From positions 7,670-27,762 of the IMG/VR virus record IMGVR_UViG_3300030107_006922: DNA of 20,093 nucleotides; one strand, written 5' to 3'. This stretch comes from a virus. The position numbers were made by a program, and so were the translations under genes. Below, in pieces: positions 360 through 19,148 of this stretch (positions within the stretch are counted from its first letter, which is position 1; each line of letters opens with the position of its first letter). The notes below the pieces were generated by a model, which saw only the letters and a program-made list of their open reading frames with translations, had not been told where the DNA came from and did not search any database.

Positions 360-1120
360 TGGCAGAGATACCAGAGATTGGTATACCTAACATTGATTCA
401 CAGATAACAGACATACCTGATTACAATTTAGAAACTCAATTAAACATACCTAGAACTCCAGCAGTAACCCTGCAAATTGGGTCACCCATTATTCAACTCC
501 CTGGGTGTGTTGAGTACAATCCTGCTAATAAAAAATCTAATAAGTTAAAAGAAGAAGATGAATCTCATAATGTAATCCTCTGTGATGGGACTGTACCGAG
601 TTACAACCCAATAAATTACGAGCCTAGACAATTAATACTAACTAAGCCAGCTGAAGTACCTATGGTTCCTATAGATACTGATTCAACAGTTGAGACTCCT
701 AAAACAGCTCTACCTCCTACTCCTGTTCCAAAAGTAGTTTGTCCACCTGTTGATGCTCCTGTTATTGGTTCTAAAGTTCAAGGTAATAAAAGTATTAGTG
801 GATATGAGATACAAAATGGTAGATGTATTACTCTTTACGAAGAAATTCCAATTATTAAGCAAGTTATAGAGGCGCTGCCGACCGCTGGGGCTGTTACAAC
901 TACTACCTCTATTGCTGTTGTGGCAACGACATCGGCAGTCCTAGCAAAGCCGCTGGCTGATCTTGTTCTGAAGGCGATAAAGCCCTTGATAAAGACCTTA
1001 ATGAAGAAGATTCAGAAGTTGTTTGGGAAGACTCCAGAGAAGTTGAATCGTTCTGAGATTCTTGCAAATCAGTATCGGGAGAAGAGAGATTTACCTCCTT
1101 TGAAGAAGGCGAAGAAATAA
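359..1120 (+). CDS. Pro-rich conserved cyanophage protein with a C-terminal hydrophobic segment
   Basis: The protein has 253 residues and starts directly on the stop of the preceding gene. Residues 1-135 are rich in Pro, Ile and Thr and look extended or poorly ordered. Four cysteines (50, 75, 128, 156) are spread through the first 160 residues. Residues 174-197 (AGAVTTTTSIAVVATTSAVLA) could form a membrane helix. They are followed by a strongly basic tail with many Lys and Arg. I recognise the hydrophobic-plus-basic C-terminus as typical of an unannotated cyanomyovirus family and know no function for it. The last 212 bases (909-1120) overlap, on the opposite strand, the end of the exported-protein gene at 909-1760. 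The coding of this gene looks normal through the overlap. Confidence 0.7.
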   Translation: MAEIPEIGIPNIDSQITDIPDYNLETQLNIPRTPAVTLQIGSPIIQLPGCVEYNPANKKSNKLKEEDESHNVILCDGTVPSYNPINYEPRQLILTKPAEVPMVPIDTDSTVETPKTALPPTPVPKVVCPPVDAPVIGSKVQGNKSISGYEIQNGRCITLYEEIPIIKQVIEALPTAGAVTTTTSIAVVATTSAVLAKPLADLVLKAIKPLIKTLMKKIQKLFGKTPEKLNRSEILANQYREKRDLPPLKKAKK

Positions 1121-1760
1121 TATGTTGATGTTGTGGTATGACTCCATGAGGATTGGTGACGACAATATCTGAGCAAATTTTGAAAGAGGGGCTGGAAGGA
1201 TGGAAGGATACTCCAAGTCTTTTTTGCTCGGCACAATGCTTAAGTCTCGCCATTTCGAAGTCTAATCGTTTATTAGCTAATAACTGCTTTGATAACTCTG
1301 TTTGAGTATTTGCGGCTCTTAAGCATCCTTCATGATGACGTTTGTCTAATGGTATAGATATGGTTGCGCTGAGTCCTAATGAAACATTGTTATTTGCCTT
1401 CTGCCCAGTCCTTGTAGGAACAGAGTACAAAATAGATCCTGGATTATTCAAATTACCATCATCATCAGTAGTCATGTCATAGACCGGTGAATCATAATAA
1501 TCTTCATAGGGGTCTTTCCAAGAATTACTTCCTGTCACAAATGGTGTGATATTTAACGTAGGTCCTTGACACGATACCCCATTTCCATAAGTATTACTTA
1601 TGTACGGACCCTGAAGAACCTGAATTGCTTGGTTCGTTACCGAGCCAGAGGAATTCGCGACTGGGGCTGCACTTGCGCTGACTCCGCCTATGGTTTCTGC
1701 TTTACTAACTTGAGGAAATAGGCTAAATGTATTGATAAGTATTACTAATATATACTTTAT
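909..1760 (-). CDS. exported protein, signal peptide, probable ATA start
   Basis: This is an unknown protein of the secreted type. The clearest signal-peptide reading begins at an in-frame ATA (1760-1758) that overlaps the TAA of the upstream gene as ATAA. It gives a Lys, a hydrophobic core (YILVILINTFSLF) and a cleavage site after VSKA, followed by ETIGGVSASAAP. No ATG, GTG or TTG lies in frame between there and the mature part. The only in-frame ATG (1868) would add 36 polar residues that overlap the upstream gene. The mature part (to about residue 210) resembles a cyanomyovirus family I recall, with motifs such as QVLQGPYI and a C-terminal half rich in Cys and His. The last 70 or so residues are Ser/Gln-rich and lie antisense to the 359-1120 gene, so the true length there is uncertain. 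Confidence 0.65.
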   Translation of the reverse strand: MKYILVILINTFSLFPQVSKAETIGGVSASAAPVANSSGSVTNQAIQVLQGPYISNTYGNGVSCQGPTLNITPFVTGSNSWKDPYEDYYDSPVYDMTTDDDGNLNNPGSILYSVPTRTGQKANNNVSLGLSATISIPLDKRHHEGCLRAANTQTELSKQLLANKRLDFEMARLKHCAEQKRLGVSFHPSSPSFKICSDIVVTNPHGVIPQHQHIISSPSSKEVNLSSPDTDLQESQNDSTSLESSQTTSESSSLRSLSRALSPSEQDQPAALLGLPMSLPQQQ

Positions 1761-2182
1761 TGGCTGAAGGTTGAAACCGTATCTGTGACCGAAGTTATTT
1801 CGCTGGTACGAGTTATCACTGTGTGAGATTTCATCCCTGGCTGAGTTAATGATGAAGTGAATTGCCATGCTTTTGTTGCATCTTTAATTGTAAAATTTGG
1901 CATATTGGTTGCATCTAATCCTGTCCATGTTGATACCACTCCATTAACGGTGTTAGATGTTGAAACAGCTGCAGGTAACAGGCTATCAGCATCTGTAGTT
2001 ATATTATTCCCTGTCACCGTCATTTGCCAGCCACTCTGATATTCAATTACCGATATCACCTCCGAAACTTTACTAGTAGTCTCAGTATGAGACGTCATAG
2101 ATCCAGATTGAAAATTTGGCGTGACAGGAACAGAAAAAGCAGGGATTGGGGCTAATAGTAAAAGCAGTAAAAGCCGCTTCAT
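1757..2182 (-). CDS. small exported protein with a signal peptide
   Basis: This 141-residue protein opens with a textbook Sec signal peptide: Lys-Arg, seven leucines, then APIPAFS with a likely cleavage before VPVTP. The mature part is Thr/Ser-rich and predicted beta (for example VISVIEYQSGWQMTVTG), has no Cys, and is compatible with a secreted or virion-surface beta protein. It is the middle gene of three consecutive signal-peptide genes on this strand. Five bases separate it from the upstream one, and its stop overlaps the apparent start of the downstream one. I recall it from cyanomyoviruses only as a conserved hypothetical. Confidence 0.75.
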   Translation of the reverse strand: MKRLLLLLLLAPIPAFSVPVTPNFQSGSMTSHTETTSKVSEVISVIEYQSGWQMTVTGNNITTDADSLLPAAVSTSNTVNGVVSTWTGLDATNMPNFTIKDATKAWQFTSSLTQPGMKSHTVITRTSEITSVTDTVSTFSQ

Positions 2183-2187
2183 GACTG

Positions 2188-2697
2188 CTACTTAACGGTT
2201 ATTTCACTTACAAATTGGCCCACCGCAGATGTGTTTGCACCTCCGGCGGTTATTGTCATAACGCCCGAACTCAAAATAGTCCCGGCGAGGGTACCTGCCA
2301 CACCACCAGAAGTTGTTGTGGTATTACCAAAAGCTGGCATATCGGCTACCACACCAGAGGCAACGTCCACACCGCTACCAATTGCTGGTATGGCGTCTCC
2401 TTGAGTCCATGACTCGCTGAAACTGAAGCTACTGCCTGTTGTATTTATGTCGTAAGTTCCGGCTTTAATCGTCGCTGCAGCTGTAGCTGATCCAGCTGTT
2501 AACCCTCCGAATACATCACTATTACCGGCACCTACTTTAATATTCGACCCCGATACTGCGTACGTCGAACCTAGACGCTCGGCAGCTGTACTTGCGCCGC
2601 CCACAGTCAATGAAGTACTGGTTGATAGACGGTGAATTAGATCTGCACGTACACTTGAAGCGCTAAATATAAACAATAGTGGTAAAAGTTTCCACAT
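2188..2697 (-). CDS. exported Gly/Ala/Ser/Thr-rich protein
   Basis: I chose the ATG at 2697 (169 residues) because it begins a clean signal peptide, MWKLLPLLFIFSASSVRA, with a V-R-A cleavage site before DLIH. An ATG four codons upstream (2709) is equally possible and adds LRK to the n-region. The TTG at 2760 would force the protein through a perfect palindrome (2723-2748) and is unlikely. AAGGA lies just ahead of the start, with tight spacing. The mature protein is rich in Gly, Ala, Ser and Thr with few charges, and alternates beta-type segments, as in secreted or surface beta proteins. It is the first gene of the three-gene exported set. Function unknown. Confidence 0.7.
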   Translation of the reverse strand: MWKLLPLLFIFSASSVRADLIHRLSTSTSLTVGGASTAAERLGSTYAVSGSNIKVGAGNSDVFGGLTAGSATAAATIKAGTYDINTTGSSFSFSESWTQGDAIPAIGSGVDVASGVVADMPAFGNTTTTSGGVAGTLAGTILSSGVMTITAGGANTSAVGQFVSEITVK

Positions 2698-2722
2698 TTT
2701 CCTTAACATTTGGGACAATAAT

Positions 2723-2748
2723 ATAAGTTTACATGAGGGTAAACTTAT
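2723..2748. repeat. perfect inverted repeat in the divergent junction
   Basis: ATAAGTTTAC (2723-2732) and GTAAACTTAT (2739-2748) are exact reverse complements around a 6-base spacer, ATGAGG. The repeat sits between the divergent starts at 2697 (minus) and 2768 (plus). It could be an operator for a dimeric regulator or a hairpin in a leader transcript. No T-run follows it closely enough to make it a convincing terminator. Confidence 0.6.
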
Positions 2749-2767
2749 TAAGTATTGCAATCATACG

Positions 2768-3276: not shown

Positions 3277-4095
3277 GTGTCATCTCTTCATTGGGCGTGG
3301 GTTTCAGTCACATCAAGATGTCATACATGGTTAAAAAGTCATCCAATAGATATAAATCAATTATCTTCTAAAGAGAAGGCTCAAGTAGTGCCTGATCGCT
3401 CTATATTGCGCTGTAAGGTCCTTAATCGTCAGAATAACCATACTCACCTAGAGATGAATGGATTAGGCGACTGGTGGGTGTTAGATAGCCATTGGAAGGG
3501 GTTAACTCTTGAGAGGTCACATACGCCTTATCTGGTCGAAGGAGATTTAGTTTATTTAAAAGATTTTCCTTATTTCTACCAAGAGTCAGATAAAGAGGAG
3601 GATAGTCAAGTATTTACCTTTACCATGTGTCTCAAGTACTTCGATACACCTAATATTAATGGGACTATGGATTATTTAAGAGTACTTAATAAGCACGGTA
3701 AGAGTATTTCTAAGGAAGCAAATAAGGCAACCTTAAATGAATTTGGTATGAATGCCACTTTTTCTCAATCCTTAGATCCTCAAGATATTAAAGAAGAGAT
3801 TAAGACTGGTCGTCCTGTTGCAGCTAGTCTTTTATCTAAAGGACCTATTGATCGCCCATATAAAGGTACCCACTTAGTAGCCATTACGGGGTATGGTAAC
3901 GACTATTGGTTAGTTCAAGATCCATTCGGCTCCATGGACATTGTTAATGGCCTGTGGAGTGATAGAGGACCACTTGCTGGACACAATGTTCGTTATAGTT
4001 TTAAAGATATGAATAGACGTTTATTTGTAAGTGGTGGGGCTTCTGGTTGGGGTTGGGTAAATTTCCGAAAGTTTGAACCAAAAGCGAAGATTTAG
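3277..4095 (+). CDS. C39-like papain-fold protein, catalytic Cys replaced by Ser
   Basis: This 272-residue protein starts with GTG. An N-terminal SH3-like stretch (about 36-80: RCKVL, DWWVLDSHW) precedes a domain matching the Peptidase_C39_2 type. That domain has a leading FPYFYQ segment (97-102), the helix TFTMCLKYF (114-122), a GTHLVAITGYG strand (197-207) with His199, and QDPFG with Asp215, at the usual His-to-Asp spacing. In relatives as I remember them, the first residue of the helix motif (C-N-V-T-x-x-A-M) is the nucleophile Cys. Aligned on MCLKYF, it is Ser110 here; the remaining Cys118 lies inside the helix. The family occurs in phages as peptidase or lysis/tail-associated domains. 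With Ser in place of Cys the protein may bind without cutting. Confidence 0.65.
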   Translation: MSSLHWAWVSVTSRCHTWLKSHPIDINQLSSKEKAQVVPDRSILRCKVLNRQNNHTHLEMNGLGDWWVLDSHWKGLTLERSHTPYLVEGDLVYLKDFPYFYQESDKEEDSQVFTFTMCLKYFDTPNINGTMDYLRVLNKHGKSISKEANKATLNEFGMNATFSQSLDPQDIKEEIKTGRPVAASLLSKGPIDRPYKGTHLVAITGYGNDYWLVQDPFGSMDIVNGLWSDRGPLAGHNVRYSFKDMNRRLFVSGGASGWGWVNFRKFEPKAKI

Positions 4096-4958: not shown

Positions 4959-5135
4959 ATGGATAAGCCTAAGAGAGATCCTTATGAATTTCTACGCGAA
5001 AGAGCGTTAAAAGTCGGTAGTGAAATGGAGGATCATCGTGATGCTAGAGACGTTGATATTGGAAGACGTGCAATAGCTGGAGAAAAACCCGATACTGTGA
5101 GAGAAAAAATGAATGATCGAGTCATTACAACTTAA
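4959..5135 (+). CDS. 58-residue charged protein
   Basis: An ATG at 4959 opens a 58-residue frame (MDKPKRDPYEFLRERALK... to ...NDRVITT) ending TAA at 5133-5135. Nearly half of its residues are charged and it should be one or two helices. It follows the HNH gene by 15 bases on the same strand and fills an otherwise empty gap, so I believe it is real. Its stop lies on the palindrome TTAA, which also holds the stop of the convergent hydroxylase gene. No function is recognised. Confidence 0.6.
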   Translation: MDKPKRDPYEFLRERALKVGSEMEDHRDARDVDIGRRAIAGEKPDTVREKMNDRVITT

Positions 5136-5938
5136 AGTAAGCTCCAACTTCTCCACCATTTTGTTATTACATATTTATCTTCGTTTTTAGGTGGCAATGC
5201 CTCATGTTTAGTTTTATAATTTGGATCTCCATTACTATATAGATTATTCCAAGCAAGTAATAAACCTCTTTTTGGTTTAATTTTTAAGTCTAGACTTTTA
5301 AAATAAGTTTCTCCTCCATTTTGTACGTCATTTAAATAGATCATAGTAGTCCAAGTACGTTGACCCATCCATTCGCAATATACTTTATGTTGAGTATTAT
5401 CTTCTGGTGGAAAGAAATCCCAATGTTTCTTGTAATATTGACCAGGATTATATTTTTGTGCTTGTAAAGCTTCACCTAAAAACATATCTAATTCCATTAA
5501 ATTTTCTAATTTTTCATTAATATCTAATATTAATTCTGCTGGAAAAAATTCTAAGTCTGCAGTTTGACTAGTCCTGTAATTAGAGGTTATTTGTTCATCT
5601 TTATCGTTTGCAATAGTAGAAGATCTAACTGTTTTATTTATGTTTTCTATTAATTCTAGACAACTTTCTTCTGATAGAAAATTTTCATAAGAGTACATTT
5701 GAGTGTAAGGGTAATCTAATTTTTTAGCTTTTGTACTTATTGGATTTTCATAGAAATATTTATAATTAATATTTTCTGGTTTCTTTTTAAATCTACATAA
5801 TCTAATTAGTTCGTTTATTTCTATATCATTGAGTTTGTATATTTTTTTAAACGATCTAGTTAGTTGCTTTTTTGAGACCCCACAAATTGCACTCCTTATG
5901 AAGGGATGAACTAAATCTTCTAATTCTGGTTTTGTCAT
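5132..5938 (-). CDS. 2-oxoglutarate/Fe(II)-dependent prolyl 4-hydroxylase-like oxygenase
   Basis: This 268-residue protein has the double-stranded beta-helix signature of P4H-type oxygenases. Iron ligands are His172 and Asp174 (KHWDFF) and His245 (KHEALPP). Lys255 (DKYVITKWW), ten residues after the distal His, should bind 2-oxoglutarate. The substrate-side strand TMIYLNDVQNGGETYF (198-213) is also typical. It couples oxidation of 2-oxoglutarate to hydroxylation of a protein or small-molecule side chain. All metal and cofactor residues are present, so it should be active. Residues 1-75 form an extra Lys-rich N-terminal region not needed for the fold. Such enzymes are common accessory genes of marine cyanophages; the target is unknown. 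Confidence 0.88.
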   Translation of the reverse strand: MTKPELEDLVHPFIRSAICGVSKKQLTRSFKKIYKLNDIEINELIRLCRFKKKPENINYKYFYENPISTKAKKLDYPYTQMYSYENFLSEESCLELIENINKTVRSSTIANDKDEQITSNYRTSQTADLEFFPAELILDINEKLENLMELDMFLGEALQAQKYNPGQYYKKHWDFFPPEDNTQHKVYCEWMGQRTWTTMIYLNDVQNGGETYFKSLDLKIKPKRGLLLAWNNLYSNGDPNYKTKHEALPPKNEDKYVITKWWRSWSLL

Positions 5939-6102: not shown

Positions 6103-6154
6103 ATTGCAACCTTTGTTCATCGCTGGTAATATAAGAGTAAGGTTTTAACTTTTT

Positions 6155-6370
6155 ATGGATGCAATAGAGCTTCCAGTCGACGTTGAGTTTTCAATTCACG
6201 CCGCTTCTCTTGCGATTCAGAATTTGGATCGCGATTCTTTAGAGGAGGCTTTTGTTGAAATATTCCATCAAAAAGCCTTAGATCGTCAAATGTTTCTCGG
6301 CATTTTAAAAGATCACGGCATTGATGCCGAAATTAAATTCAACGTTTCCACAGAGGGACAGATTTCTTAA
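6155..6370 (+). CDS. NblA-like phycobilisome-degradation adaptor candidate
   Basis: This 71-residue protein matches the layout of cyanobacterial NblA without gaps, as I remember the family. It has an I-E-L lead (4-6), a first helix containing E-F-S-I (11-14), Q-N-L (22-24), a turn with Asp, then a long second helix with E-A-F-V-E-I-F-x-Q (31-39). It ends in L-K (51-52) and G-I-D (55-57). NblA dimers bind phycobilisome rods and recruit a Clp protease to degrade the antenna. Some cyanophages carry NblA. The last 14 residues extend beyond the usual end. The start is ATG with TAAGG about 13 bases upstream. A beta-rich gene begins 5 bases after its stop. The alternative is an unrelated helical-hairpin cyanophage protein. 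Confidence 0.6.
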   Translation: MDAIELPVDVEFSIHAASLAIQNLDRDSLEEAFVEIFHQKALDRQMFLGILKDHGIDAEIKFNVSTEGQIS

Positions 6371-6375
6371 TTACT

Positions 6376-6759
6376 ATGGCTACTCGTACTATTGAAGGCA
6401 CTTTAGATACTCTTAGTATTGATGCTGGTTCTGAGATTACTTATCTTGGGGCTACAGCAGCAGGAAACCCTGGCGAGGCTATTAGAGGCTTTCGCGTAAA
6501 TCCTGGCGGAACTGGGGACATAAAGGTCACATTGGACAGAACCAGTGCTATTGGGACAATGGAAATCTTCCAAGAAGATGATCATTCAGCAGGTAGTGCT
6601 CCTACTGGCTATAAGAAATTTGCCAATATAGCTAAAGATGGCAAAGGAAAAGGAGTCGTTGGTGTGACCGTTACTAACGCTGCTAAAAACTATGTTGTGC
6701 TATTAACATTAGATGGTTATTCTAGTGTTAGCTATAACGGTAGCGTTGTCGTCCCATAA
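6376..6759 (+). CDS. beta-rich conserved cyanophage protein, probably structural
   Basis: The protein has 127 residues, no cysteines and no membrane segment. Alternating short strands (ITYLGATAAG, GDIKVTLDRT, VVGVTVTNAA, NYVVLLTLDGY) suggest a compact beta-sandwich, as in phage decoration or tail accessory proteins. That assignment is inference from composition. The region after residue 90 has a KDGKGKGVVGVTV motif that I recall in cyanomyovirus homologues of unknown role. The gene follows the NblA-like one by 5 bases. Its last codons overlap the N-terminus of the lysozyme-like gene in another frame. Confidence 0.65.
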   Translation: MATRTIEGTLDTLSIDAGSEITYLGATAAGNPGEAIRGFRVNPGGTGDIKVTLDRTSAIGTMEIFQEDDHSAGSAPTGYKKFANIAKDGKGKGVVGVTVTNAAKNYVVLLTLDGYSSVSYNGSVVVP

Positions 6760-7489
6760 GAGTAATTTACAAGAAAAGTGGAAAGAATATCCGTTTTTAA
6801 CGAGAAAGGGTATTGATTTAATAAAAGAGCATTCGTTAGCCCGTACTTATATAGGTATGGATAGATATGCCTCGTATAAAGAGTATGGAGAAGACATTTG
6901 GAGAATAGGTTATGGGAGTAAAAAACTAGGTAAAAGGTGGGTATCCTCGTCTGAGAAGGCTACTAAGGAAGAAATAGATTCCCAATTAGAAGAAGATTTA
7001 AAGGATTTTTCAAATCTAGTTTCTAGTTACGTTTTAGTACCACTAAACACTAATAGAAAAGCAGCTATTTTAAGTTTTGCTCAAAGTATTGGTATAGCTT
7101 CTTTTAAAACTTGTCGATTATTAGATCTAATAAATAGTTCTGCTGGTAGAACTAAGATTATTAAAGAATGGAGTCCGTATATTAATCGTCTTTGGAGGTC
7201 AGGTGGAGATCTGATAATAGATAAACGTCGTATGGAACTGGATACGTACTTTGCCCCTGACAAGGAAATTCCAACTTTGGTTCCTCATCGTTGTAAGTTG
7301 AAGAGATGCTTATTAAATCTCCCTGAGACTTATAATGGAAATCCAAATCAACTGAAGGCAATTGATTATCTTGAGAAGAAATTGTTAAAATGGGATCCTT
7401 CTGGTGAGGTTTTACGTCAGTTTTTTCGTTATTGGTCTCAGAAGCCCACTTGTCTAGGATCTTCGCCGCGTCAGGCTCGTAATGTTTGA
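6746..7489 (+). CDS. GH24-type lysozyme-like protein with an altered active site
   Basis: From the TTG at 6746 this is 247 residues. Residues 18-160 follow the phage lysozyme fold: LTRKGIDLIKEH with the general-acid Glu28, the IGYGS signature (54-58), a helix with RKAAILSFAQSIG, and a final RRMELDTYF helix. The classical triad Glu-x8-Asp-x5-Thr is broken: about ten residues are inserted, and the Thr before IGYG is Arg53. Residues 165-247 are a cyanophage-specific extension ending in SGEVLRQFFRYWSQKP. It may cleave peptidoglycan during lysis or infection, or only bind it. An ATG at 6713 would add MVILVLAITVA, a hydrophobic lead overlapping the previous gene out of frame. I prefer the TTG because I recall homologues starting near SHKSNLQEKW. 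Confidence 0.75.
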   Translation: MSSHKSNLQEKWKEYPFLTRKGIDLIKEHSLARTYIGMDRYASYKEYGEDIWRIGYGSKKLGKRWVSSSEKATKEEIDSQLEEDLKDFSNLVSSYVLVPLNTNRKAAILSFAQSIGIASFKTCRLLDLINSSAGRTKIIKEWSPYINRLWRSGGDLIIDKRRMELDTYFAPDKEIPTLVPHRCKLKRCLLNLPETYNGNPNQLKAIDYLEKKLLKWDPSGEVLRQFFRYWSQKPTCLGSSPRQARNV

Positions 7490-7900: not shown

Positions 7901-8527
7901 TTAACAGATGATTTTTCCAATGTTTGAAAACACTTCTTTAAATTTGTCGATTTGCGAAAAACCTAAATCCAATTTTGGTAAATAGATAAAGTAACCCCAG
8001 TATATAGGTGATTTCAGGGTATACAAGTCTTTGCCATGTATTAGATTAGCTCTATCAGTAGGAATACAAACAGGATAATCCCACATCTCTGGACATATCC
8101 TCATCATTTCTGGGTAAATAGTATAAAACAGTGCTTCTGGAATATTACGAAGCTTCCATTCTTTTACTAAACGTTTAAACCAAATAACTGAAGGTGCTTT
8201 AGAGGAAGCCCCAGACTCTAAACTCCATCGCCAAGTTCCCCGATCTTTATTAAAAGAGCATCTACCAAAACTCGGAGGAAATAGATAAGTGGTACCTGTC
8301 CAAGGATCTTGCATGTTTAAGCCATCCTCTTCTAAGGTATATATTTTTTTAGCCCTTAAGAATTCGATATTTGCCGTATGTGTTGAACAAGGATCTAGGT
8401 CAATATCTCCTAAAACGGCATAGATATAAGGTAAATATTCTGCTGGAGTTAACCAATCATCTTTTATATGAGATATTCGGCCTATTATTCGTTTGTAATC
8501 GGCCCATCTGAACTTTCGTTTCTTCAC
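7901..8527 (-). CDS. Dam-like DNA adenine methylase fold lacking the catalytic motif
   Basis: This 208-residue protein starts with GTG overlapping the previous stop (GTGA). It opens like phage N6-adenine methylases of the Dam (PF05869) type: WLTPAEYLPYIY (25-36), IDLDPCSTHTAN (42-53), an aromatic YTLEEDGLNMQDPWTG (63-78). The motif after this, normally Asn or Asp then Pro-Pro-Tyr/Phe, reads L-F-P-P-S-F (82-87), so the catalytic Asn/Asp is Phe. The rest has many aromatics (WYWGYFIYLP-type segments) and several cysteines. True Dam proteins methylate adenine using S-adenosylmethionine. This one may have lost catalysis or use a variant site. It is part of a tight six-gene minus-strand run. Confidence 0.65.
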   Translation of the reverse strand: MKKRKFRWADYKRIIGRISHIKDDWLTPAEYLPYIYAVLGDIDLDPCSTHTANIEFLRAKKIYTLEEDGLNMQDPWTGTTYLFPPSFGRCSFNKDRGTWRWSLESGASSKAPSVIWFKRLVKEWKLRNIPEALFYTIYPEMMRICPEMWDYPVCIPTDRANLIHGKDLYTLKSPIYWGYFIYLPKLDLGFSQIDKFKEVFSNIGKIIC

Positions 8528-10006: not shown

Positions 10007-11053
10007 ATGGGTAGACGCATACCTGATATGGAAGTTCTTTTATCAGGAGGTATAAAAAAACCTTTAAAAGAACTAGAGGTAGGAGATAAGGTTCAAACTC
10101 TTCATCAGGATACTTTAGAAGAAAGAGAGGCGGAAGTTAGTTATGTAAGGGTTATTGACTCTCCTTTACTTTCTTTAACTCTTTCAGGAAAAGAATTTGT
10201 TTGTTCAGAAGAGGATAGATTTTATGCAACTAATTTAAATAGATGGGTACACGCTTCAAGTCTATTAGAAGGCGATACAATCTCTCAGTTAGATGGAGAA
10301 GTCAAATTTGAAGGAAAGAAAAAAATAGGAAAAGGTAAATCAGTTGAATTAACCGTTGATGATGCCCATACATACGTGTGTGATGGAGTTTTAATGCATA
10401 ACAAGGGTGGTAGTCCTCCTCCACCAACCATTATCATGCCTCCTCCACCTCCACCACCACAGATTGTGACGGAAGTGACTCCCCAGCAAACATATCAGGA
10501 TGCTTCGGATTATCTGAGACGTATACAAAAGAGAGATGATGCAATAGAGAAGAGACGTTGGGACATGGGATTATCACCTGCCGATATAAGGGTTCGACAT
10601 ACTGCTAGTGATTTACGTGGTGCAGAGAATGCTGCCGCACTTTCAGGTCCACCAAATCCAGCAAGTATGCCAGGCTATTTTGGTTCACAGACGATGCCAG
10701 GTGGTAGAAGCGCTGCTAGTCAAATTGTTGATGCTTTATATTCTGGACCTGAGAAAGGAAGTCAAAGCAGACAAACTCGTATTACACCTAAACAATATTT
10801 AGATTACTCAACTCCTAAAGCTGTTTATGCAGGTCCACAAGCTCGATTAAATCAGATGCAGGAGGCATATGATCTTGCAATGCAACAAAAAGCTAAAGAG
10901 ACCTTTACTCCAACTGAGTTTGAAGCCCCTTCTTGGGCTGAAAGAGACTGGTGGGACGAAATTCAAAAATGGGAAGAGAGAAGCGATAAAGTCGAGATGG
11001 GGGATCCTACTCCTGTTATTTATGATGCTGACGATCTAAAAAAGAAAAAATAG
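10007..11053 (+). CDS. N-terminal Hint (intein-like) domain protein lacking Cys1
   Basis: This 348-residue protein begins with a Hint domain (1-133): MEVLLSGGIKKPLKELEVGD at the start, then WVHASSLLEGDTISQL, ending AHTYVCDGVLMHNK. The C-terminal splice residues His131-Asn132 and the block F His121 are present. The splice Cys normally at the domain start is missing (GRRIP), and the block B T-x-x-H is S-E-E-D (67-70). So N-terminal splicing is impossible as far as I can see, while Asn-dependent C-terminal cleavage could survive. A Pro-rich linker (137-151: PPPPTIIMPPPPPPP) leads to a helical, Gln/Arg-rich region and an acidic end. It is probably a tail or virion-associated protein in which the domain separates or processes the C-terminal part. 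Confidence 0.7.
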   Translation: MGRRIPDMEVLLSGGIKKPLKELEVGDKVQTLHQDTLEEREAEVSYVRVIDSPLLSLTLSGKEFVCSEEDRFYATNLNRWVHASSLLEGDTISQLDGEVKFEGKKKIGKGKSVELTVDDAHTYVCDGVLMHNKGGSPPPPTIIMPPPPPPPQIVTEVTPQQTYQDASDYLRRIQKRDDAIEKRRWDMGLSPADIRVRHTASDLRGAENAAALSGPPNPASMPGYFGSQTMPGGRSAASQIVDALYSGPEKGSQSRQTRITPKQYLDYSTPKAVYAGPQARLNQMQEAYDLAMQQKAKETFTPTEFEAPSWAERDWWDEIQKWEERSDKVEMGDPTPVIYDADDLKKKK

Positions 11054-14792: not shown

Positions 14793-17700
14793 ATGTCACA
14801 AACTAAGGCTCAATTATTGACAGGTAAGTCGGATCAGACTGTTACTGTGTCAACTTTAACTAGTGGAGATATAACTAGTAGCGGAAATTTAACCTTAAAT
14901 GCTCAAGGTGATCTTCGCTTAGCAGACAGTGATTCAAGTAATTATATAGCTTTCCAAGCACCAGCTACGGTTGCTAGTAATGTTACTTATACCTGGCCAG
15001 CTGCTGATGGAGCTGGAGCAAATTATGTTCTTGCTACTGATGGATCTGGAACGCTATCTTGGATAGCTGATCCAGCTGGACAATGGACAACTAGTGGTAG
15101 TGATATATATTTCAGCGGCGGCAATGTCGGTATAGGGCTTACAAATCCAGCAACTCCTTTGTCAGTGACTGGAACGTCAACTCTAAATGGAGACGTTACT
15201 TTTACTGGTGCAGCTGCGAACGTTACTTGGGATAAGTCAGAAGATGATTTGATTTTTGCTGATAATGCAAAACTAAAACTCGGGACTGGCGGTGATTTAG
15301 AGGTGTATCATACGGGAGGACATAGTCATATTAAGCAAGAGGGTACAGGTCATCTATATATAAATGCTGATACTTTTAGATTAAATAATAAAGCTAATGA
15401 TGAAAATATAATTGTTGCTGCTGCTGACGGAGGAATAGAATTTTATTTTAATCATACAAAACGAGCCGAAACGGTAAGCGCGGGATTTACGGTGACGGGA
15501 GTTTGCTCAGCAACTTCTTTTACCGGAGCGTTTAATAGTGATGGACAGAGTAATACTGTTTTAGGTACACAAGCAGGAGATAGTTTTTCAGGCACAGATG
15601 CAACATCTAACACTTTAATTGGATACGATGCTGGTACTGCAATTACTTCAGGTGATGAAAATACTGCAGTTGGTAGAAGTTCTTTAAAAACACTAGATAC
15701 AGGTATTAAAAACACTTGTATTGGAGCTTACGCTGCTGAAAATGCAACTGGTGTTCATTTCCATGAGAACGTAGCAGTTGGAAATAACGCTTTAAGAAAT
15801 GTTGTAGACGAAAGTGAAATTACAGCAGTAGGTTATGAAGCACAAGAAACAGATTGCGGTATTGGAAATACAGCCTTTGGTTATCGAGCTGCTAAAGGTA
15901 ATCATTCCACAAGATTATTAGCTATTGGTCATAGCGCTGGTCTAAATAATAATTCTTGGCCTAATACGTTTATTGGTTATAACTCTGGAGGTGCCAGCTC
16001 AGATATAACTGGAAACAACACAACTGCTGTAGGTTATGATTCTTTAAGTGTATTAACAACAGGTGGTAATAACTCTGCTTTAGGACATAAAGCTTTAGAT
16101 CTTAACACAACTGGAGAACGAAATACTGCCGTTGGATCATTTACCTTAGACGCCAATACAACTGGAAGTTATAGTACAGGTATTGGTATGTACGCCCTAG
16201 GCAACAGCACAACAGGTAGTTATAACACTGCTCTTGGATATAACGCATTAAACCTAAATACAACAGGAGCTGGACATGTAGCTATTGGTATATATGCCTC
16301 AGATGCAATAACAACTAATAACTACACAACAGCATTAGGTTATAACGTTTTAACTGCAAACACCGCAGGTCTTGTCACTGCTGTTGGAGCTTATGCAATG
16401 ACGGCTAATACTTCTGGTGAATACAACACAGCAGTTGGATATTCAGCGTTAGAACTTAATACAACAGGATATGAAAACGTAGCTATAGGTCATAAAGCTT
16501 TAGAAGCTAATACAGTAGCAGGAAGAAATGTAGCTGTAGGTTGTTATGCATTAGATGCAAATCAAACAGGTGTAGATAATGTTGCTATTGGTCGTAGTTC
16601 TTTGTCTGAACAAACTGATGGAGATCACAACACTGCAATTGGTAGTTTTGCGTTAGATGCTAATACAACTGCAGACCATAATACGGGTATTGGTTATCAT
16701 ACCTTAGGAGCAAACACAACTGGATCAAAGAACGTTGCTATTGGTAATTATGCGTTAGATGCGAACGTATCAAGTTCTGATAATGTTGCCGTTGGTTATG
16801 GAGCGTTATCTAACAGCACTACAAGTTATAACACTGCTGTTGGTTTTAAAGCGTTGCTAGAAAATACAACAGGAACATATAACACTGCTGTAGGTAATCT
16901 TGCTTTAGATGCAAACACTTCAGCTAGTTATAACACTGGCATGGGTCATGGATCATTAACTAGCAACACAACAGGATCTGGTAATACTGCTTTTGGTACC
17001 AATTCGGGATTATCAAACACAACTGGAGATAATAATACTGTTGTCGGTCATAACGCTTTATTTCTAAGCACAACTGCAGATAATAATACTGCTGTTGGTA
17101 AAAGTGCTTTAGGAGCTAATACAACTGGAACAAGAAACACTGCTGTAGGTTCTCAAGCTTTAGATGCCAACACTACTGCTGAAAGAAATGATGCTTTTGG
17201 TTATAACGCTTTAACAAGTAATACGACAGGAACGCTTAACGTTGCAATTGGCGATTCTGCAATGGCTCTTAATACCACAGGTGGTGCTAATTGTGCTATT
17301 GGAACAAGTGCTTTAAATGCTAATACAACAGCAAGTAGTAATACTGCTCTCGGATATTATACTTTGGCCTTCAATACAACAGGAGCACAAAACACTGCTG
17401 TTGGTAGGGGTGCATTGTATACAGCCACAACAGCTGATAATAATACTTCTGTTGGGTATCATAGTTTATTATTAAACACAACTGGAACTAAAAACGTTGC
17501 TTTTGGTTCTGAAGCATTAGATGCAAATACAACAGGTGATGGTAATGTTGCTGTTGGGTATGGAGCTTTAGGTGCAAATACTACAGGATATTCAAATACA
17601 GCTGTTGGTCTTGAGGCATTACTAGATAACACAACAGGTACTGCAAATACAGGAGTGGGCGATGGTGCCTTAGAAAATAATATATCTGGAAATGATAATG

Positions 17701-19148
17701 TTGCTATTGGCAGAAATGCCTTAATGACGAATACGACAGGAGATAAAAATCATGGATTAGGTCGTCAGGCATTATATGTAAACACAACAGGAGCTAATAA
17801 TACTGCTGTTGGTTATCAAGCTCTGTATGAGAATACCACTGCATCTGATAATACTGCTGTTGGTATGGAATCACTCCATTCAAACACAACTGGAGCTCAT
17901 AATACTGCAATAGGTCACGATTCTTTAGAGAGTGTTACTACAGGTAGTTATAACTGTGCGTTAGGAAGAGATGCTGGTAGAAGTATCACAACTGGATCAA
18001 GTAATGTTTGTCTTGGTTCTAATTCAAATGATGCTGCTAATACAAGTGATGTTGTAGCGATAGGAGATTTTGCCCTTTCAGCAAATGAAGCTGATGGTAA
18101 TGTTGCTGTTGGTCATAATGCAATGTATGTAAACACAACAGGAAGTCAAAATGTTGCTGTTGGTAATTTAGCTTTAGAAGATAATACAACTGGTGCTCAA
18201 AACACTGCGGTTGGTACTTATGCTTTAGATGCTTGTACAACTGGTAGTGAAAATACAGCTATCGGTCAGCAAGCTCTTACACATACAACAACGGCAAGTT
18301 ATAACACTGCTGTTGGTAGAGCAGCACTGAATGATAATACTACAGGAGAACAAAACACTGCTATTGGTCAAAATGCTTTAGCTGATAACACAACTGCTCA
18401 TAATAATACTGCTGTTGGTTGTCTTGCTATGCGATTAAACACAACAGGAACTTCAAACGTTGCTGTAGGTACATATGCATTAGATGCTAATGTAACTGGT
18501 TCTTATAATATTGCTATAGGGTATAAAGCTCTTTCCTTATCAACAAACTCTAGTAACACAGCAGTTGGACACGACGCTTTAAAAGCTTGTACATCTGGGC
18601 AAAGAAATGTAGCAATCGGTACTAATACTGGAAACGCAATTACAACAGGTTCTGATAATGTATTGCTAGGAAGAGATGCTGGTTTATCTACTTCACCTTC
18701 CGGTGCGATTACAACTGGTGACCATCAAGTAGTTTTAGGAGATGACGATGTAACAGATTTATGGTGTGCTGATACTTCAATATCATCCTCTGACTCAAGA
18801 GATAAAGCAGATATCACTGATTTCACTAAAGGTTTGGATTGGATTAAAGCACTTAGACCAGTTACCTATAAATGGGATAAAAGATCATGGTATGGAACAG
18901 ATGCAGAACCTTACGGCACATCAGATGGTTCTAAGAAAAAATCAAAAGTAAATATTGGATTTTTAGCTCAAGAAGTTCTTGCTGTAGAAAAAGCAAATGG
19001 TTACGGAGATACAAACGACAATATGCTAATTTGTAAGCTTACAGAAGACGAGATGAGATATGGACTTAAATATGAACGATTAGTTCCCGTTCTTGTTAAT
19101 GCAATTAAAGAACTATCAGCAAAAGTAACTGCACTCGAAACTGCATAA
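14793..19148 (+). CDS. long tail fibre with YadA-head-like repeats and peptidase S74 chaperone
   Basis: This 1451-residue protein is a receptor-binding fibre. The N-terminus (1-245) is beta-rich, with cyanophage fibre motifs such as LRLADSDSSNYIAFQAP, TWPAADGAGANYVLATDGSG and LEVYHTGGHSHI. Residues about 250-1318 are some 60 tandem copies of a 17-residue unit, N-T-T-G-x-x-N-T-A-V-G-x-x-A-L-x-x, the pattern of YadA/Hia-type trimeric beta-solenoid heads. The C-terminus (1329-1451) is a peptidase S74 domain with SSDSRDKADI; Ser1333 and Lys1338 have the Ser-x4-Lys spacing of the self-cleaving dyad. The last residues (ELSAKVTALETA) form a coiled coil. S74 domains help the trimer fold and then cut themselves off. 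Confidence 0.9.
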   Translation: MSQTKAQLLTGKSDQTVTVSTLTSGDITSSGNLTLNAQGDLRLADSDSSNYIAFQAPATVASNVTYTWPAADGAGANYVLATDGSGTLSWIADPAGQWTTSGSDIYFSGGNVGIGLTNPATPLSVTGTSTLNGDVTFTGAAANVTWDKSEDDLIFADNAKLKLGTGGDLEVYHTGGHSHIKQEGTGHLYINADTFRLNNKANDENIIVAAADGGIEFYFNHTKRAETVSAGFTVTGVCSATSFTGAFNSDGQSNTVLGTQAGDSFSGTDATSNTLIGYDAGTAITSGDENTAVGRSSLKTLDTGIKNTCIGAYAAENATGVHFHENVAVGNNALRNVVDESEITAVGYEAQETDCGIGNTAFGYRAAKGNHSTRLLAIGHSAGLNNNSWPNTFIGYNSGGASSDITGNNTTAVGYDSLSVLTTGGNNSALGHKALDLNTTGERNTAVGSFTLDANTTGSYSTGIGMYALGNSTTGSYNTALGYNALNLNTTGAGHVAIGIYASDAITTNNYTTALGYNVLTANTAGLVTAVGAYAMTANTSGEYNTAVGYSALELNTTGYENVAIGHKALEANTVAGRNVAVGCYALDANQTGVDNVAIGRSSLSEQTDGDHNTAIGSFALDANTTADHNTGIGYHTLGANTTGSKNVAIGNYALDANVSSSDNVAVGYGALSNSTTSYNTAVGFKALLENTTGTYNTAVGNLALDANTSASYNTGMGHGSLTSNTTGSGNTAFGTNSGLSNTTGDNNTVVGHNALFLSTTADNNTAVGKSALGANTTGTRNTAVGSQALDANTTAERNDAFGYNALTSNTTGTLNVAIGDSAMALNTTGGANCAIGTSALNANTTASSNTALGYYTLAFNTTGAQNTAVGRGALYTATTADNNTSVGYHSLLLNTTGTKNVAFGSEALDANTTGDGNVAVGYGALGANTTGYSNTAVGLEALLDNTTGTANTGVGDGALENNISGNDNVAIGRNALMTNTTGDKNHGLGRQALYVNTTGANNTAVGYQALYENTTASDNTAVGMESLHSNTTGAHNTAIGHDSLESVTTGSYNCALGRDAGRSITTGSSNVCLGSNSNDAANTSDVVAIGDFALSANEADGNVAVGHNAMYVNTTGSQNVAVGNLALEDNTTGAQNTAVGTYALDACTTGSENTAIGQQALTHTTTASYNTAVGRAALNDNTTGEQNTAIGQNALADNTTAHNNTAVGCLAMRLNTTGTSNVAVGTYALDANVTGSYNIAIGYKALSLSTNSSNTAVGHDALKACTSGQRNVAIGTNTGNAITTGSDNVLLGRDAGLSTSPSGAITTGDHQVVLGDDDVTDLWCADTSISSSDSRDKADITDFTKGLDWIKALRPVTYKWDKRSWYGTDAEPYGTSDGSKKKSKVNIGFLAQEVLAVEKANGYGDTNDNMLICKLTEDEMRYGLKYERLVPVLVNAIKELSAKVTALETA
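15540..18740 (+). repeat. tandem 51-base coding repeat in the tail fibre
   Basis: About 60 degenerate copies of a 51-base (17-codon) unit, recognisable from AACACAACTGGA or AATACAACAGGT followed by AACACTGCTGTTGGT. Wobble positions vary between copies while the protein consensus is kept, which indicates selection at the protein level. The early units (before about 16100) are the most divergent. Confidence 0.85.

Follow-up and report, generated by a model that had tools for sequence, protein, structure and literature searches.

The locus analysed here raises the question of whether a short open reading frame of an uncultured virus encodes a viral form of NblA, the protein with which cyanobacteria mark their light-harvesting antennae for breakdown, as an initial annotation, made from the sequence alone, had proposed. 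The window, that is, the whole stretch of DNA analysed, comprises 20,093 nucleotides of IMG/VR record IMGVR_UViG_3300030107_006922, and the features considered are collected in Table 1. The frame of 71 residues was present as claimed, running from ATG to TAA. Its relatives in IMG/VR numbered at least 149 in a single-sequence search and 230 in a profile search; the best 80 were all 71 amino acids long and aligned without gaps, and this length was kept in nearly all the members inspected, one divergent clade having 70. Thirty-eight positions were invariant among 37 distinct sequences, and the nucleotide differences among family members fell mostly on third codon positions (2744, 928 and 8086 at positions 1, 2 and 3, respectively). 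As judged from this third-position bias and from the many relatives of equal length, the frame is a genuine gene, subject to purifying selection, and not a product of chance.

Table 1. Features at and around the NblA-like gene. Positions refer to the window, except the one prefixed L242.
Feature	Position	Strand	Remarks
NblA-like gene	6155..6370	+	ATG at 6155, TAA ending at 6370; 71 aa; homologous to NblA over residues 3-53, followed by a conserved tail particular to the lineage (54-71)
Promoter-like element	6105..6143	+	TTGACC-type -35, TAAGAT-type -10, spacer with TTCAGCGCTG, AAGG ribosome-binding-like site
127-aa conserved gene	6376..6759	+	No known family; starts 5 nt after the NblA-like stop
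Phage lysozyme	6713..7489	+	PF00959, E 1.7e-13; the gene probably starts within this frame
Dam-like gene	7901..8527	-	PF05869, E 0.0068, below cut-off; synteny marker also present in the S-EIV1 lineage; distance to the NblA-like gene about 2 kb
2OG-Fe(II) oxygenase	5132..5938	-	phrog_61, E 6.6e-24; divergently placed upstream neighbour
Second endolysin	3277-4095		Lysis gene near the NblA-like gene
Large tail-spike genes	14793-19148 and L242:685-7494		Flank the NblA/lysis region further out
348-aa protein	10007-11053		By eye, N-terminus like a Hint/intein-splicing domain, fused to a possible structural protein
Three consecutive genes	909-2760	-	Signal-peptide-like starts; conserved across the lineage

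Concerning the resemblance to NblA, the landmarks that had been named were found in the protein, which reads IEL, EFSI, QNL and FVEIFHQ where the NblA of Anabaena reads IEL, QFSI, QNM and FLVKLYEQ. The alignment with cyanobacterial NblA (PF04485; NF045916; PDB 1ojh from Anabaena PCC 7120, and 3cs5) is gapless, as had been stated, over about residues 3-53, but the G-I-D landmark requires one gap of a single residue (LK-DHGID against LKHQWGLD in Anabaena), the window family lacking one residue ahead of Gly-[IL]-Asp. Both families have in common an N-terminal L-x-[VL]-[DE]-x-[EQ]-F-x-I motif and the position of the loop, and the hydrophobic pattern coincides at 42 of 52 positions, while only 25% of the 52 aligned residues are identical and a Pro replaces Ser/Thr after the first Leu. 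The window family also differs from the cyanobacterial one in its extra conserved tail of 18 residues, nearly invariant in the window family and absent from cellular NblA. By comparison of the two families, this tail is a lineage-specific addition to the NblA part.

At so low an identity, a chance resemblance had to be considered, in which a conserved phage protein bears no relation to NblA. The window protein gave no useful match to Pfam or PHROGs, with no hit to PF04485 at its gathering cut-off of 25 bits; against NF045916 it scored 18.7 bits (E 0.0015, model positions 10-56 of 56), far below the equivalog cut-off of 100 bits. Searching phage isolates directly with cellular NblA by tblastn produced either no match or irrelevant ones. 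The profile tests, however, largely refute a chance origin, which we regard as extremely improbable. When the window protein was compared by phmmer with 177,635 PDB sequences, ranks 1 and 2 were two NblA structures (E 0.003 and 0.006). A profile of the window family by itself reached 3cs5 at E 4.5e-4; with orthologues of the S-EIV1 type added, it gave two matches at E<=10, both to NblA (4.3e-6 and 3.2e-5); and a joint profile with more divergent members found only NblA (1.5e-6 and 1.4e-5). At E<=10, the family profile brought up no further helical protein from the PDB. The NblA model of NCBIfam was the top family for 37 of 37 members, with a best E of 3.5e-5. An NblA HMM built by us from 14 sequences, none of them from the window lineage, gave the window frame 27.1 bits (E 5.1e-7) and unrelated frames of the same set 7.1 bits at most; the highest score of an unrelated frame in a set of 21,791 ORFs was 12.9 bits. 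Finally, the profile-profile comparison that had been called for was run with hhalign between the window family and NblA; it yielded a probability of 94.7% and a score of 40.8 over 63 columns, against a maximum of 17.9 in 150 column shuffles and 15.0 for the reversed alignment, which excludes the absence of a significant profile match. These results, together with the bridge through S-EIV1 described below, support well the view that the window protein is a remote homologue of NblA, with common ancestry along residues 3-53. Since the PF04485 cut-off was not reached, the protein is not a member by the Pfam rule, and it is best filed, on sequence grounds, as a homologue of NblA that lies beyond the reach of the Pfam model.

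Among phage isolates, a plausible relative was found only in Synechococcus phage S-EIV1, whose protein AHV82245.1 is annotated as hypothetical and is 26% identical to the window protein over 68 residues (blastp). Taken alone, AHV82245.1 had a single Pfam match, NblA (E 0.014), and a single PDB match, also NblA (E 0.016). The HMM of the window family matched the S-EIV1 family at E values down to 1.2e-5. As in the window family, AHV82245.1 and its relatives adjoin a lysozyme gene and the Dam-like, 8524r and 8960r genes, which in relatives such as L221 lie on the reverse strand about 2 kb away. The HMM match, the lysozyme adjacency and this common gene run indicate that both families are most likely orthologues. 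Two members of the S-EIV1 group, L221 (26.5 bits) and L227 (26.2 bits), pass the PF04485 cut-off, so that some of these probable orthologues are NblA by a curated rule. The start of the C-terminal tail is similar in both groups. The S-EIV1 group differs from the window family in an acidic C-terminal extension (total length about 106 amino acids), in having the lysozyme gene before rather than after the NblA-like gene, and in not having the promoter element of the window family. A mismatch was seen in L063 / G016, where a window-type NblA-like protein accompanies a PolA sharing 74% identity with that of S-EIV1 and about 40% with those of the other relatives; it indicates a transfer, of either the NblA-like gene or the polymerase, from one lineage to the other.

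With respect to the fold, AlphaFold2 applied to the joint alignment predicted helices at residues 8-21 and 26-53, with pLDDT of 82-86 over most of residues 11-50 and a mean of 76; a previous model, made from an alignment of too similar sequences, had a pLDDT of 52 and was discarded. The predicted helix-loop-helix, with a short first and a long second helix, fits the NblA monomer. A fold other than that of NblA, which would have spoken against the initial annotation, was thus not seen, but Foldseek comparison of the monomer with the PDB and viral models did not pick out NblA and returned nothing significant. This search, run with no positive control and with a short two-helix hairpin, which is a poor query, is uninformative, and the identity of the fold rests on the helix boundaries and the sequence alignment.

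The Foldseek outcome could also be read in favour of a small virion or lysis-module protein of function unrelated to NblA, the match reflecting no more than a two-helix shape common to both and recruited for assembly or lysis. The location of the gene would agree with this, as it stands directly before the 127-aa gene and the lysozyme gene, and between tail-spike genes. The tail-cluster context assigned to the gene is in fact only loosely right: its nearest neighbours are lysis genes, and the large tail-spike genes are found further out on both sides. The 127-aa gene occupied the same place in 78 of 106 scanned loci, many of them incomplete. The two tail spikes, of 1451 and 2269 amino acids and on the same contig, contain dozens of NTAVGYxAL..NTTG repeats and both end in a domain like an intramolecular chaperone. 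Against a virion or lysis role, the profile significance and the shuffle controls exceed what a helical shape alone would give, and the gene is preceded by a promoter-like element of its own, not seen elsewhere in the scanned loci. A role of this kind appears therefore very unlikely.

The promoter-like element spans 12-50 nucleotides upstream of the ATG, ending 12 nucleotides before it, and was common to 50 distinct loci in a gap-free alignment; it was not flagged by a generic sigma-70 scan. No second copy was found in the scanned loci, and for this reason a general late promoter was rejected. The simplest reading of the sequence is that it would be a private promoter of the NblA-like gene. 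The palindrome CAGCGCTG, placed between the -35 and -10 boxes of this element, which in the scanned loci stands only before the NblA-like gene, could be a regulator-binding site.

As to the virus, the DUF6450 gene of the window gave 424 matches to isolate or single-cell phage records, all of them cyanophages or marine single-cell viruses; psbA was present in 6 of 21 window-family contigs of 35-88 kb tested, and hli-like matches were common. By gene content, these three lines show the window lineage to be one of cyanophages. For its placement, the phrog_2 terminase gave no match and PolA was used instead, being 40% identical to the PolA of S-EIV1 and 35% to that of Syn5. Where found in relatives, PolA was a single frame of about 610-650 amino acids, and no tyrosine integrase (PF00589) was detected in 20 records including the window contig, relatives and S-EIV1. 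In a set of 80 loci chosen solely by the neighbouring Dam-like gene, the NblA-like gene was present in 75, and the remaining five stop short of its expected slot or at about that point; it behaves thus as a core gene of the lineage.

It seems reasonable to interpret, with a probability of about 0.72, that the gene encodes a divergent viral NblA that feeds host antenna proteins to the Clp protease, a function deduced from homology. The protein would be made during infection from its own promoter and would dimerise, as NblA does in forming its four-helix bundle. Its second helix or C-terminal part would bind host phycobiliproteins and its N-terminal part would bind ClpC, in such a way that, as a ClpC adaptor, it would deliver phycobiliproteins to degradation by the Clp protease. 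Antenna breakdown would free amino acids and lower light capture during phage replication; that the phage benefits from the amino acids is what we infer. If the protein is functional, infection by these phages would include the dismantling of the antenna as one of its basic elements, undercounted in marine surveys. The residue aligned with what we take to be Lys53 of NblA, on the phycobiliprotein side, is a Lys (window residue 52) invariant in 43 distinct members, and the position presumably equivalent to Leu51 is Ile or Val. At the other end of the protein, the N-terminal motif is kept in the window family with the Ser/Thr to Pro change. In NblA, the N-terminal part is described as the ClpC side and the C-terminal part as the phycobiliprotein side (PMC4103541).

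An NblA homologue by descent could, on the other hand, have been retargeted, acting as a ClpC adaptor for another host protein, for example residual phycoerythrin, another photosynthetic protein or a defence protein, either through infection of Prochlorococcus by some of these phages or through a change of specificity brought about by the tail. In two relatives, psbA (G002:C1:80257-81153 and G009:C1:66979-67875) was closest to that of Prochlorococcus phages (92-94%), so the host of some relatives may be Prochlorococcus. This organism has neither phycobilisomes nor nblA (PMC7439483), and the target may then not be the phycobilisome in every host. Retargeting would also agree with the nearly invariant tail and with the loss, in the S-EIV1 group, of the Lys that the window family has at the Lys53 position. 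Nevertheless, that lysine of the phycobiliprotein side does not vary within the window family, and Synechococcus, the host of S-EIV1, possesses phycobilisomes. Moreover, psbA is weak evidence of the host, since it moves between phages; the observations come from relatives, the window contig being a 27.8-kb fragment on which psbA was not shown. A change of target is, on balance, unlikely but should be kept in mind. Its more specific form, a core viral NblA in a lineage reaching into Prochlorococcus, which would be an imported ClpC adaptor with a different substrate and with the tail as a new targeting part, is rather improbable.

Returning to the divergent viral NblA, proteins of the same family and presumed role are known from the freshwater phages Ma-LMM01, PaV-LD and MaMV-DC, with expression during infection and bleaching upon expression of the gene (PMC9602691, PMC4103541). 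Those proteins are close to host NblA and are found by standard annotation, whereas that of the window is a remote form and belongs to the core genes of a different lineage. In marine phages (cyanopodoviruses, S-TIM5 and S-SCSM1), nblA is, according to PMC9602691, which cites Nadel 2019, also remote and, like that of the window family, picked up by profile methods only; one such protein is active, causing bleaching in S. elongatus. The S-SCSM1 NblA (54 amino acids) was found neither by our NblA HMM nor by the window-family HMM. The uncultured marine cyanophage lineage with nblA of Flores-Uribe and Nadel (2019) reportedly has an integrase and a split DNA polymerase. As the window lineage showed no integrase in the 20 records and has an unsplit PolA, it stands apart from that lineage as so described. 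A recent study is also said to have found nblA in several families of cyanophages and to have seen it affect infection.

A 2017 survey of photosynthesis genes in genomes of the S-EIV1 type reported hli and ptoX and no nblA (PMC5332604). This, together with the hypothetical status of the S-EIV1 gene, makes the NblA label look new for both lineages in the literature searched; the novelty asserted at the outset holds to that extent, but not for phage NblA as such, which is already known, including the marine bleaching case (PMC9602691). What is added is a divergent NblA, carried by an uncultured lineage of cyanophages, together with its more distant orthologue from the S-EIV1 lineage, both of a kind that standard automatic annotation misses. 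Phage NblA has been known mostly as a patchy accessory gene, while here it occurs at every examined locus that reaches its slot. Because S-EIV1 is an isolate with a host, Synechococcus, the NblA proposal is directly testable. A minor observation concerns L082 (QQUU01000116.1), a contig assigned to a MAG of Bacteroidetes, which carries the cyanophage NblA-like gene at 85% identity; it was rejected as a host gene, the contig being most likely a mis-binned one of phage origin.
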